Source: Leptospiraceae bacterium
GTDB lineage: Bacteria; Spirochaetota; Leptospiria; Turneriellales; Turneriellaceae
Reading direction: 5' to 3'
Length of the DNA: 10,607 bases
NCBI GenBank assembly: GCA_016788945.1
Contig: JAEUSA010000037.1
Span: forward strand, 1 to 10,607
Part shown: in pieces, positions 2,848-7,089 of the stretch
Layout: the number at the start of each line of letters is the position of its first letter
How positions within the stretch are numbered: the first letter of the stretch is position 1
Position numbers and translations under genes: made by a program
Notes under the pieces: model-generated
Seen by the model: the letters and a program-made list of their open reading frames with translations, nothing else
Told to the model about the DNA's origin: nothing
Databases searched by the model: none

Positions 2848-4377
2848 TCAGATCACGCGCGCGTAGTTTTCAAACGGAACCTGCCATACCTTAATGCCGC
2901 AGAAGTGGTCGCCTTCGGGGCAGCGGGGCTTCAAATGTTCGCGCACGACGCACGGGGGGCCGATATACTGCCCGATTTCTGGAAAACGGCTTTTGATTTC
3001 GCTGACCTCGGCATGCGCCGAATAGAAGATTTCTTCCTGCGCATTATAGCAGAGGCGTGATTTCCACTTGTGGTAGAAATTGTAGAAATCACCCGATTCC
3101 ATAAACCGTACGGGAAATGCATTGGGCAGAATGTAGGTGAGGTCTTCGCGCGGAAGTGCTTCGTTTTGCCACAGCGAGCGCAATAGGGCAAAATTTTCCG
3201 AAAGGTAGTTGCGGTAGGTGGCGGCAGCGCGCTCTGATTCGTGAATCAGCCGCGGTGTGATATAATCGTCTTCGAGCGACACCTGCGCCGCAAGGTGCGG
3301 CCGGTTTCCCGGCAGAGTGCGATGGCGCTGCTCCTGCGAGTCTGCCGTATGTGATAATTTCTTCTGGAAGGTGAAATGCGCATGGTTCAGAAGCCGTGTC
3401 GTTTCGTCGAGTGTACCTGGGTAAAAGACATCGCCGAGTAACGGGTTAAGCTGCGTGTCGAGCGCCGCCGCGGCAGAAGGAAAAATCCCCCCTGATTGCG
3501 TGAGTGCATCTACCGATGATGAAACAAGACGCGCACTTTTGCCCGTGAGCAGAGCGTCGAATGCCGCATTATTCTTTTTTGCCGCGGCTGCGTCGATGCT
3601 GCGCTCGGGAGCAGCGAGGGGCTCGGGCATTTCTTCGAAAAGATCTGCGTCAATTTCGCGCACGATGCGCAGCATGTGTATGCCCAAGACGACAAATTCT
3701 TCGCTGCGCGACCATAGCAGCATACGCGCGTAACGCATCAGCGTCAGCGCACTGATGCTGTGGTAGAGATAGGCCACGGTCGAAACCGGCATGATGTAGC
3801 GCGCGACTTCCATGCAGCGCTTCTTGATGGCATCGGCGTGATCTTCCCGATTTCGCGCCTTCAGCCGGTGAATGGAAAAAAAGATCTCTTCGACCACGGG
3901 CGTAAGCTCTGTGATCAGCTGGCTATAGGTGGCAAAGGCGCGCTCGTGCAGCGCATGCACCGCAGCGTTGCCGGCGAGCGTGCGGGGCAGGGTATACCAA
4001 GTGCGGTCGGCTTTGATCGGTACATAACGCTGTGACACCTGCTCTGAATTGTAATAAGGATGAGCGTGCAGTATCTGCCAGATCAACTGCCGGCTGACAT
4101 TCTCGAGGCCAAAAACAAACTGTGCATGCTGGCGTGTCGTGTGGTGGCCAGACTTAAGCGTTGCGCGCGCGACTTTTTTTCGCAGTTCAAGCGATTTTTC
4201 CGATTTGTGCATGTCATCGGGCGTGAGCAAACCCTTTGAACTATAGCATGTGCGTGCTGATGCCGCGGCAATATCAAACGGGCGCGCGGTATGCGCAATC
4301 AGGCGCACCTTTATCGGCGAAACGGCCAGCGCTTCAGCATATTCTTTGGTCAATTCATCGAACCAGTGGGCCGCCAT
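2848..4377 (-). CDS. thyX: Tandem (double-length) ThyX-like thymidylate synthase
   Basis: ThyX makes dTMP from dUMP with FAD, NADPH and methylene-tetrahydrofolate; ordinary members are 220-250 residues, but this has 509 and two ThyX-like halves. Half 1 (about 22-250) has SGHHTTRQHAQFVFG at 76-90 and a signature region at 105-118 reading AHPYYNSEQVSQRY, then a helix resembling the LxxLLxxR region at 208-240. Half 2 (about 325-509) has RHRT at 351-354 and LCYNAQEEI at 442-450, like the usual LRxxxxAQxEI helix. Against RHRxxSxNExSxRY, half 1 lacks both Arg of RHR but keeps SxRY, and half 2 keeps RHR but lacks SxRY. The C-terminus has C476, C486 and C493 with H481 and H491. I chose the ATG at 4377: the frame stays open to 4641, but that stretch lies over the upstream permease gene and has no family character. 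It sits 32 bases downstream of the permease gene and probably ends the operon. Family membership is firm; activity of this split form is inferred. Confidence 0.85.
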   Translation of the reverse strand: MAAHWFDELTKEYAEALAVSPIKVRLIAHTARPFDIAAASARTCYSSKGLLTPDDMHKSEKSLELRKKVARATLKSGHHTTRQHAQFVFGLENVSRQLIWQILHAHPYYNSEQVSQRYVPIKADRTWYTLPRTLAGNAAVHALHERAFATYSQLITELTPVVEEIFFSIHRLKARNREDHADAIKKRCMEVARYIMPVSTVAYLYHSISALTLMRYARMLLWSRSEEFVVLGIHMLRIVREIDADLFEEMPEPLAAPERSIDAAAAKKNNAAFDALLTGKSARLVSSSVDALTQSGGIFPSAAAALDTQLNPLLGDVFYPGTLDETTRLLNHAHFTFQKKLSHTADSQEQRHRTLPGNRPHLAAQVSLEDDYITPRLIHESERAAATYRNYLSENFALLRSLWQNEALPREDLTYILPNAFPVRFMESGDFYNFYHKWKSRLCYNAQEEIFYSAHAEVSEIKSRFPEIGQYIGPPCVVREHLKPRCPEGDHFCGIKVWQVPFENYARVI

Positions 4378-4409
4378 AGGTAAATCTGCAATTGTTCGCC
4401 GGGCCGTCC

Positions 4410-5513
4410 CTAATAATCCATGCGCCAGTAGACATAGGCGGTGGCAGCACCGGCAATAATGTTGGCAAGGTTGCCGGCAATAAAGGGATGTAGCGAACCG
4501 CTCTCGCCGAATGCCGAGCCGAAATACATAAAGAAGAAATACGCGAGGGTAAACAGCATCGACACGGCGATACTGGTGGCGGCACTCCCCTTTTTGAGCC
4601 GTCCGCCGATCATGCCACCAATGAAGGCAATAAAGAAACATACCAGCGGATATCCCGCGTGCCAGAATACTTCGGTCAGAAAGACCGAATATTCACCACC
4701 CGATTCGCGGCGTTTACTGTAGATCTTGTACGAATCGAAAATCGAGCGCTCTTCGGAGTCCATTTCGACATAAAAATTCTGGAATGCCCGCATATTTTCC
4801 GGAAGCTCCAGATCGATATTTTCATAGGAATCGGTATCGAGGTAAAGGCCGCTCTGGTCAAAGCGGGAAATCCGCGCACGGACGAAATGCCAGCGCCCCG
4901 ATTCGCCGCCTTCAGAAATGGCCTTTTCAGCTTCGATGATGCGGCTGATCGAGCCGGTATCGCCCAACTCGAGCAAATGAAAGCCGATCAGTGTTTTATC
5001 GTACCAAGCACCGTAACCGATCGTATAATAACGTTTGCCAAAACGCAGAGTCAGGTTGCTGCTGTGATCATGCTTGCGCAGCCTCGCATCGCTGCCTTTA
5101 TTGCGCAATGCATAGCTGATGTCGACTGCCTTATACGCGGCGGGAAAGGACACGTACTCGTTGAAAAAAAAGAACGCCACCGAAAGAACGCAGGAAAACA
5201 CCACAATGGGCCGCAGAATACGACGAAATGATCTACCCGCTGCGAGCATCACGGTAATCTCAAAATTGCGGCCGAACTGCGCGATGGTAAATGCCACGGC
5301 GAACATCAGCGAAGGCGGTACGATATAGGTAATGAATGTCGGTGCGATGGTGATGTAATACTGTATGAGCAGCGCTGTGCCCTGCTTATTTTCGTTGAAG
5401 TCTTTGATCGAATCGAGCACTTTGACAATCACAGCGACGCCGATCAGCAGCACGAGCGTGCCGAAGAAAGATTTCAAAAATGACTTAAAGACGTAGCGGT
5501 CGAGTATATCCAT
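4410..5513 (-). CDS. lptG: LptF/LptG (YjgP/YjgQ) family LPS-export permease
   Basis: LptF and LptG form the inner-membrane core of the LptB2FG ABC complex that pulls lipopolysaccharide from the inner membrane and passes it to LptC/LptA. This 367-residue protein shows the family layout: three N-terminal membrane segments (about 12-34, 53-80, 101-118), a periplasmic beta-rich domain (about 120-275), and three C-terminal segments (about 284-303, 311-330, 343-362). The start ILDRYVFKSF resembles the LptG N-terminus, and EITVMLAAGRS at 85-95 matches the conserved loop after TM2 (ELxxMRAxG). I placed the start at the ATG at 5513, 1 base after the stop of the upstream glycosyltransferase gene; a longer reading from 5552 would overlap that gene and add 13 residues outside the family N-terminus. 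No clear Shine-Dalgarno is visible, so translational coupling is likely. LptG rather than LptF is a judgement from the N-terminus; the ATPase and partner permease are not in this window. Confidence 0.85.
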   Translation of the reverse strand: MDILDRYVFKSFLKSFFGTLVLLIGVAVIVKVLDSIKDFNENKQGTALLIQYYITIAPTFITYIVPPSLMFAVAFTIAQFGRNFEITVMLAAGRSFRRILRPIVVFSCVLSVAFFFFNEYVSFPAAYKAVDISYALRNKGSDARLRKHDHSSNLTLRFGKRYYTIGYGAWYDKTLIGFHLLELGDTGSISRIIEAEKAISEGGESGRWHFVRARISRFDQSGLYLDTDSYENIDLELPENMRAFQNFYVEMDSEERSIFDSYKIYSKRRESGGEYSVFLTEVFWHAGYPLVCFFIAFIGGMIGGRLKKGSAATSIAVSMLFTLAYFFFMYFGSAFGESGSLHPFIAGNLANIIAGAATAYVYWRMDY

Positions 5514-5514
5514 T

Positions 5515-7089
5515 TTACATCGGGTAACGGTAAACCCAGAATTTATAGCCAAAATAGTTGGTGATGAAACTGATCAGCACAGTGGAAAGCTTGAATAGAT
5601 TTGTGCGCAAGACGCTGAGTTCGGGGTTGTAGAGCAGGTTGAGCCCGTGGAAGATCAGCGCTGAAATAAGCAGCGTAAAAACCGAAACCGTAAAGAAACG
5701 CCGGTATGCCGCACGGCGCTTGAACGTATAGCCGCTGTGCAGAGTGAATGCGAGCAGGTTCGCACACAAAAAGGCCGCGACCATGTACATGAGCTGACGT
5801 ATTTCACCCCCATTGCCGAAGGTGAGGATCAGCGTGTTATGGATCGCAAAATCGGTAAAGGTATTGATCGACCCGGTAACGGCGAACTTGATCAGATGAC
5901 CGAAACGAAAACGAATGAGTTCATTGAGTACGCGCAGCGTCTGCTTGAAAGTTACTTTGCTGCCCGCCTGGTCATTCCAACGCACGGGTACTTCGGCGAC
6001 CGTGAGGCCCACAACGGCGGCCTTTTTCAGAATCTCAAAATCGAAGCCGAATCGGATATTGGCCAGCGAGCGGAATATGTACTGTGCCGCGCGGCGTTCA
6101 AACAGCTTGAACCCGCATTGGGTATCTTTATAGGGCAGATCGAGCAGCAGACGAATCAGCAGATTTCCGCTGCGACTCACGAGGCGGCGCACGATGTTCT
6201 GTTTGACGCCGATTTCACTGCCGCTGAGGTAGCGTGATCCGATTGCCGCGTCGGCGCCGGTTTTGAGTGCCAGTTCGAGTTTGGGGAGTTCAGTAATCGG
6301 CGTTGCTCCATCGGCGTCGCACACGAGTATTCTCTTGGCTGAAGCCGCGAGTACACCTTCGCGCACGGCTGCACCTTTACCCGAATTTTCATAGAGCCTG
6401 AGTGTCTGCACGCGCGGGAAGGCCTTGTGTATGACCGCCGCCGTATTGTCGCGACTGCCGTCGTCGACCACGATGATCTCATGGCTGATTTTGCGCGACT
6501 TGAAATAGCGGATTACCGACGGAAGATAGAGCGGCAGGCGCTCGGCTTCATTGTACGCCGGTATAACACAAGCGATCTCGGGTTGTTTTTCCGGTTCTTT
6601 GCGGTGCGCCTGCAGAACGCACACCGTGCCGACTCCGATGAGCTGGTTGAGATAAGGATGCAGCCTGACTTCGAGCGAGAACAAGAAACGGGCGAGACTT
6701 TTTATTCCCGGCAAAAAGACCAGCCAGATCACGGGCAGGGTAAACGCGCCAAAATGGAATAACTCACGGACTTCATAACCCGGAATATCCTGTACTGCTG
6801 CGCGCAATGAGCGGTCGGCGCCACGGTTAAAAGCCAAAATTACCGCTACCTGCGGCCGATTCTTGCGCAGTGTCAGCGTGCTGCCGGCGGCATCGGCGCT
6901 GATCAGTACTTCAGGTTTCGCGGTCGCCGCTTTCAGCGGAATGAAGTTCCCGAACGATTCGTTGAGTGCACCGGGTTCTGCGTGATAGGTCGCAATGATG
7001 CGCGGGGCATAGGCGCGCACGAGGCGGGCGATTAATCTTTCGAGATAAGGCGAAAGCAGCGAGCGGGAGTTCTTGATAGTAATCAGCAA
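5515..7089 (-). CDS. ALG5-like GT2 glycosyltransferase fused to GtrA membrane domain, with extra N-terminal region
   Basis: This 524-residue protein probably transfers a sugar from a nucleotide donor to a polyprenyl phosphate at the inner membrane and helps flip the product. Residues 171-385 are a GT2 domain of the dolichyl-phosphate glucosyltransferase (ALG5/DPM1) type: CVIPAYNEAERLP, IIVVDDGSRDNT (D209, D210), the DxD site D258-A-D260, KDTQCGFKLF at 321-330 and VAEVPVRW at 364-371. Residues 398-522 are a GtrA domain with about four membrane segments. Residues 1-170 are not part of either; about 75-163 (ending in a hydrophobic FTLPVIWLVF stretch and VCVLQAHRK) faintly resemble the C-terminal half of class I SAM methyltransferases. 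The start is a TTG at 7089; the frame opens at 7119 and offers no ATG between there and 7089, so the exact start is uncertain. It appears to be first in an operon with the lptG- and thyX-like genes. Sugar and acceptor are unknown. Confidence 0.85.
   Translation of the reverse strand: MLITIKNSRSLLSPYLERLIARLVRAYAPRIIATYHAEPGALNESFGNFIPLKAATAKPEVLISADAAGSTLTLRKNRPQVAVILAFNRGADRSLRAAVQDIPGYEVRELFHFGAFTLPVIWLVFLPGIKSLARFLFSLEVRLHPYLNQLIGVGTVCVLQAHRKEPEKQPEIACVIPAYNEAERLPLYLPSVIRYFKSRKISHEIIVVDDGSRDNTAAVIHKAFPRVQTLRLYENSGKGAAVREGVLAASAKRILVCDADGATPITELPKLELALKTGADAAIGSRYLSGSEIGVKQNIVRRLVSRSGNLLIRLLLDLPYKDTQCGFKLFERRAAQYIFRSLANIRFGFDFEILKKAAVVGLTVAEVPVRWNDQAGSKVTFKQTLRVLNELIRFRFGHLIKFAVTGSINTFTDFAIHNTLILTFGNGGEIRQLMYMVAAFLCANLLAFTLHSGYTFKRRAAYRRFFTVSVFTLLISALIFHGLNLLYNPELSVLRTNLFKLSTVLISFITNYFGYKFWVYRYPM

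Follow-up and report, generated by a model that had tools for sequence, protein, structure and literature searches.

The closest described relatives of the protein analyzed here are the single-domain flavin-dependent thymidylate synthases (ThyX), whose reaction yields no dihydrofolate, and a double-length ThyX of Chlamydia (~530 aa) that Griffin et al., writing in the Journal of Biological Chemistry (JBC) in 2005, reportedly found to be enzymatically active. For the M. tuberculosis (Mtb) enzyme, contacts with flavin adenine dinucleotide (FAD) and deoxyuridine monophosphate (dUMP) have been listed by subunit, with Arg95-His96-Arg97 and Arg199 from subunit A, Ser71 and Arg190 from subunit B, and Arg87, Ser105, Arg107, Tyr108 and the Gln103 backbone from subunit C (PMC6514825). 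Arg199, which corresponds to R174 of the T. maritima (Tm) enzyme, is said to activate dUMP (PMC8316439), and Tm His53 has been placed on "monomer-3" (PMC11940539). Here we describe a gene within a 10,607-nucleotide stretch from a Leptospiraceae bacterium (contig JAEUSA010000037.1; this whole stretch is referred to as the window) that encodes two fused ThyX domains, and we consider it highly probable that its product is a working flavin-dependent thymidylate synthase in which the two domains share the labour of one active site.

Division of active-site residues between two fused domains

A first-pass annotation had placed a tandem ThyX at positions 2848-4377, and both these coordinates and the two domains stand; the gene lies on the minus strand, where it encodes 509 aa starting with MAAHWF at 4377, the plus-strand frame being interrupted by several stops. 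Profile searches of the contig found two stretches matching PF02511 (Pfam Thy1), at 3655-4305 (7.8e-25) and 2977-3399 (1.9e-16), each exceeding the cut-off, the protein scored 142.6 bits against a curated cut-off of 24.8, and the ThyX fold is present in both halves. The full RHR...S.RY signature is absent from either half and is supplied by the two combined; with NCBIfam TIGR02170, the ThyX equivalog model, the protein scored 76.4 bits, below the cut-off of 87.9. This low score, and the failure of each half alone to satisfy the published motif, are what would be expected of a degenerate, inactive ThyX with both halves drifting while another enzyme makes or salvages thymidine monophosphate. By fold, domains and genomic role, the tandem protein is a ThyX without the full signature in one domain.

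Residues 105-118 of half 1 read AHPYYNSEQVSQRY, with S115, R117 and Y118 retained, whereas residues 351-362 of half 2 read RHRTLPGNRPHL, with R351, H352 and R353 retained and SxRY gone, all as the first-pass annotation had it. Its claim that RHR has become AHP in half 1 holds for the loss of RHR, the exact pairing being ambiguous by one residue: the MAFFT alignment puts H104-A105-H106 at this place, and no Arg is found either way. The replacement of NE by EQ that it read in half 1 amounts to half a loss, as M. tuberculosis ThyX has S-Q there and Q113 is identical in 72/72 aligned window-type proteins, and N358, which it counted as a retained motif residue of half 2, had to be given up (S 42, A 10, T 8, V 7, N 3 and L 2 in the 72-protein column). 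The division reaches further than the motif it had considered: half 1 alone has counterparts of Tm H53, T55 and R147 and of Mtb Arg87 (H78, T80, R193 and R96), whereas the counterpart of Tm R174/Mtb Arg199 (R441) is confined to half 2, the half 1 column holding mostly C/A/M/L among the aligned window-type relatives.

The alignment behind these counts comprised the window protein and 71 relatives, out of 77 unique open reading frames (ORFs), five ORFs shorter than 400 aa having been dropped (L009, two of L089, L090 and L096). H78, T80, R96, S115, R117, Y118, E190, R193, R351, R353 and R441 were identical in all 72 proteins, and H352 in 71. Part of the relatives had been picked by peptide patterns, two of which (HPYYNSEQ and HTADSQEQ) overlap the ThyX motifs; in a pattern-free set, the window protein plus 28 relatives from a search on protein similarity only, the same residues were identical in 29/29. 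As S115, R117, Y118, R351, R353 and R441 are identical throughout both sets, the split of the motif is not due to chance. The residues that replace RHR in half 1 are equally constant (H104 and H106 72/72; P107 71/72). Close relatives differ from each other with a strong bias towards synonymous sites, in half 1 and half 2 alike (pN, nonsynonymous, 0.06-0.32; pS, synonymous, 0.66-0.92, values near or beyond saturation), and purifying selection thus acts on both halves. Random drift, which the annotation had offered as grounds for refutation, was seen in neither half. The features are collected in Table 1.

Table 1. Positions of the tandem ThyX gene and its features in the window (counts refer to the 72-protein alignment)
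Feature	Positions	Strand	Evidence
Tandem ThyX gene, 509 aa, stop codon included	2848..4377	minus	Start backed by near relatives aligning from residue 1-3
Half 1, residues 20-258, ThyX domain with subunit B- and C-type residues	3604..4320	minus	
Half 2, residues 262-509, ThyX domain with subunit A-type residues and Cys-rich tail	2851..3594	minus	
H78-H79-T80; H78 = Tm H53/Mtb H69; T80 = Tm T55/Mtb Ser71 (subunit B, FAD)	4138..4146	minus	Alignment
R96 = Mtb Arg87 (subunit C, dUMP)	4090..4092	minus	Alignment; 72/72
Half 1 motif HAHPYYNSEQVSQRY (104-118), without RHR; Q113, S115, R117, Y118 retained	4024..4068	minus	Conservation in 72 proteins
E190...R193 = Tm E144, R147; half 2 without R147 counterpart, often with E144 counterpart	3799..3810	minus	E190, R193 72/72 each
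Half 2 R351-H352-R353 = Mtb Arg95-His96-Arg97 (subunit A, FAD and dUMP)	3319..3327	minus	72, 71 and 72 of 72
R441 = Mtb Arg199/Tm Arg174 (subunit A, activates dUMP); half 1 has L220 there	3055..3057	minus	72/72
C443, first of four invariant Cys, two residues after R441	3049..3051	minus	72/72
Cys-rich tail: C476, C486, C493 (PCx9CPEGxxxC)	2899..2954	minus	70/70 with letters there

Proposed composite sites and other tandem types

When the alignments are set against the subunit contacts of the Mtb enzyme, the counterparts of the subunit A residues fall in half 2 (RHR and R441) and those of subunits B and C in half 1 (T80 for B; R96, S115, R117 and Y118 for C). The place of Tm H53, two residues ahead of Ser71/T55, led us to group it with B, and Tm R147 and E144 were grouped with B/C because they segregate with the B/C residues.

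Four further, far more divergent types of tandem ThyX were found in genomes of the window's phylum, which we grouped as TX2 (L097-L102), TX3 (L103, L155), TX4 (L158, L159) and TX5 (L156), making five types in all, and the four show the same split of the site, in the same order. In an alignment-free count over 88 tandem proteins (77 of the window type and 11 others), S.RY was present in 88/88 first halves and RHR in 87/88 second halves, and the full signature in 0/176 halves; RHR also turns up elsewhere in two first halves, and S.RY elsewhere in two second halves. The same count over single-domain ThyX (41 proteins sampled from the window's phylum plus that of T. maritima) gave the full signature in 35/42, the other seven lacking its strict form. 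A half-by-half MAFFT alignment of 32 tandem proteins (21 of the 77 window-type proteins and the 11 others) showed Tm H53, S/T55, S88, R90, Y91 and R147 each in 32/32 first halves and E144 in 30, with R78 in 4, H79 in 1, R80 in 8 and R174 in 2, whereas the second halves had R78, R80 and R174 in 32/32 each and H79 in 31, with S88 and R147 in none, S/T55 in 1, and H53 and R90 in 2 each. Segregation is therefore clean for most positions, E144 and Y91 apart.

L158 and L159 are very divergent tandem ThyX (441- and 488-aa frames) and were divided into halves by hand at a conserved string, L158 having failed the two-domain split and L159 lying below the first threshold; such enzymes are easily missed, because only one of the two domains of each is picked up by the Pfam model. 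Among single-domain proteins, L116 (the same gene as L149), L150 and L152, of genus g72, have THI for RHR and AYxEI for AQWEI with S.RY intact, and may have another activity.

An ordinary ThyX consists of four identical subunits forming four equal sites, each built from three subunits: A brings RHR and the dUMP-activating Arg, B holds FAD, and C holds dUMP through Arg, Ser, Arg and Tyr. In the tandem protein, half 2 has the A-type residues and half 1 those of B and C type. If two chains came together so that their four domains formed a pseudo-222 tetramer, each half 2 would meet half 1 of both chains. Each of the three two-fold axes of a 222 tetramer relates a subunit to one of its three neighbours; by our own geometric reasoning, with a half 2 in the role of A and halves 1 in those of B and C, the remaining neighbour must be the second half 2, and so, provided that the pseudo-tetramer is kept, each half 2 would have a complete site and each half 1 an incomplete one. 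The outcome per dimer would be two complete sites, each across both chains, plus two incomplete ones, in place of four, and we infer that each chain binds one FAD and one dUMP. Composite sites are the best reading, because the segregating residues match groups that come from different subunits in the solved tetramers and because the split holds throughout the family and recurs in the other tandem types. The annotation's proposal that the halves have specialised and build fewer, composite sites thus gains support as a prediction from sequence.

A functional enzyme with a single catalytic half, whose site would be non-standard, and a structural or regulatory partner half that adds no residue to catalysis seems to us quite unlikely. 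The invariant H104, H106 and P107 at the RHR place of half 1 could mean a remade site, but half 1 lacks a conserved R174 counterpart and half 2 lacks S88 and R147, and such an enzyme would leave unexplained both the invariance of the two complementary residue sets and the same division in the other tandem types.

Several observations weigh against composite sites. The subunit letters of Tm R147, E144 and H53 were assigned by us, none coming from the cited sources. An Arg counterpart of Mtb Arg190, the other FAD contact of subunit B, is present in 0/77 first halves and 0/77 second halves of the window type, the window protein having Leu and Tyr there in its two halves. Glu is found at E144 in 16/32 second halves and Tyr at Y91 in 8/32, while in half 1 the third Arg of RHR persists in 8/8 TX2/TX3 proteins and the first Arg in 4/9 TX2/TX3/TX5 proteins. 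Finally, the profile alignment is unsure at the lost motif of half 2 (22/77 gaps; S in 15 at the S88 column and R in 15 at the R90 column), a place where neither the MAFFT alignment nor the alignment-free count bears out a motif. A bolder version of the composite-site reading, which we regard as doubtful, is that the composite is obligate, that the division arose more than once, always with B/C first and A second, and that the second, non-catalytic pair of pockets, where the invariant H104 and H106 stand for RHR, has been reused, for example in regulation.

Genomic role, distribution and origin

The tandem is the only ThyX in the window's genome, and profile searches of this genome (94% complete) gave no match for thyA or for dihydrofolate reductase (DHFR), the two genes for which the first-pass annotation had proposed looking (thyA and folA). 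It therefore stands in place of thyA and, here, of DHFR. Across 48 genomes of the window's class, 36 had a strong tandem match (best E <1e-55), each with exactly two PF02511 stretches (those of the window's genome are the two given above), and thyA was found by profile search in 0/36. Conversely, the seven genomes with thyA all lack ThyX and have DHFR matches of 4e-34 or better. Four others have another ThyX, as one stretch each in G040, G080 and G181 and as two separate genes in G095, and G120 has neither thyA nor ThyX, with a DHFR match of 1.1e-11. Because none of the 36 tandem genomes has thyA and none of the seven thyA genomes has ThyX, we conclude that the tandem ThyX is very probably active. 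DHFR is absent or weak across the 36 tandem genomes, as one would expect where an active ThyX makes no dihydrofolate.

In G095, which belongs to the window's family, there is no tandem and no thyA match; its two separate 220-aa ThyX frames (L151 and L160) lie on different contigs, and one of them has RKG for RHR.

Pulling the other way, DHFR exceeded the cut-off in two of the 36 tandem genomes, weakly (1.9e-7 and 3.0e-6), and fell below it in one, and the window's genome has a match to the thymidine kinase family (PF00265), which in this one genome may point to thymidine salvage and would suit the inactive enzyme considered above. Thymidine kinase was matched in only 8/36 tandem genomes, the window's included, and the other 28 have no match. 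A dead gene was rejected on the lack of thyA and DHFR, the invariant residues, the purifying selection on both halves and the complementarity of the retained residue sets, and on these same grounds a degenerate, inactive ThyX is very improbable; the annotation's alternative of lost activity alongside another thymidylate synthase likewise lacks support. A changed substrate (such as another pyrimidine nucleotide, like PolB), with the protein not serving as the cell's thymidylate synthase, is scarcely credible, as every dUMP contact listed in PMC6514825 is retained between the halves and the 36 genomes, with two PF02511 stretches each and no thyA, would otherwise be missing a thymidylate synthase.

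Window-type genes were found in records titled Spirochaetes, Deltaproteobacteria, Omnitrophota, Elusimicrobia, Nitrospirota, Chlamydiae, Campylobacterales, Planctomycetota, Micrarchaeota, Woesearchaeota and others, including a Chlamydiae metagenome-assembled genome (L095; 42% identical protein) and, as a named isolate, Thermomicrobium roseum, on a plasmid. The latter is one of two plasmid records, out of 15 that match, covering 80% of the query; the other, from Geoalkalibacter, spans 678 bases, a single-domain length. Phage records gave 17 matches, none covering 80%.

In trees that took in 21 of the 77 window-type proteins, with the eleven motif columns removed, the two halves of the window type grouped together (92/77), apart from the other types, at a point where long branches meet. 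Neither one clade of all first halves (approximately unbiased test, p-AU 0.34) nor one of all second halves (p-AU 0.19) was rejected, and the choice between one ancient duplication and several fusions behind the tandem types is undecided. A candidate natural two-gene version, L089, a window-type copy from Poribacteria (2974-4559), was discarded: its two ORFs do not share a frame, linker-like sequence is found in a third, and the frame changes between its halves are probably assembly or sequencing errors.

Conserved cysteines and comparison with known systems

Four Cys are invariant in the window type, one beside R441 and three in the tail (Table 1). In the second halves of tandem proteins the set was present in TX1 (the window type, 21/21) and TX3 (2/2) and absent in TX2, TX4 and TX5. 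Among single-domain ThyX, 12/42 have a Cys at the C443 place (L104-L110, L116, L120, L126, L150 and L152), all 12 with at least three tail Cys, whereas 0/30 of the others have three. For the 23 solved ThyX sequences that match a four-Cys single-domain protein, the best-matching stretch stops short of the tail Cys. The set points to a subfamily of ThyX with a putative metal (Zn or Fe-S) site next to its catalytic Arg; a search of Creative Commons (CC)-licensed papers in PubMed Central (PMC) found nothing on this.

Elsewhere in the window, a minus-strand gene at 5515-7089 encodes a family 2 glycosyltransferase fused to a GtrA-type membrane domain and overlaps the start of an LptF/LptG-type gene.

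If the composite-site reading is correct, a widespread form of ThyX with non-equivalent halves would show how gene fusion can divide the shared site of a symmetric tetramer. It would also provide a natural test of which subunit gives which residue, because each role can be changed independently in a tandem. In addition, genuine thymidylate synthases of many bacteria, and of some archaea, would be overlooked when annotation relies on the motif or on the equivalog cut-off. Because human cells have no ThyX, the enzyme figures in discussions of drug targets (PMC4913046). No paper on a tandem or divided ThyX was found by title or abstract start among the matches listed from the CC-licensed PMC literature, a coverage that leaves out the 2005 Chlamydia ThyX paper.

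Compared with the single-domain enzymes of T. maritima (TM0449), M. tuberculosis and H. pylori, both tandem halves have the same fold, and all the side-chain contacts listed in PMC6514825 except Arg190 are found in one half or the other. They differ in that the tandem consists of two fused, non-equivalent domains with the full signature in none, and it is predicted to have two active sites per assembly and not four. The Chlamydia enzyme is likewise reported to be of double length. The herpesvirus dUTPase is a fused, monomeric, single-site enzyme in which a shared site was rearranged after gene duplication, its motifs coming to lie in different halves. The two proteins are thus alike in that the motifs of a subunit-shared site lie in different halves, but their fold and chemistry are unrelated, and whereas one chain makes one site in the dUTPase, two chains are predicted to be needed in the tandem ThyX.
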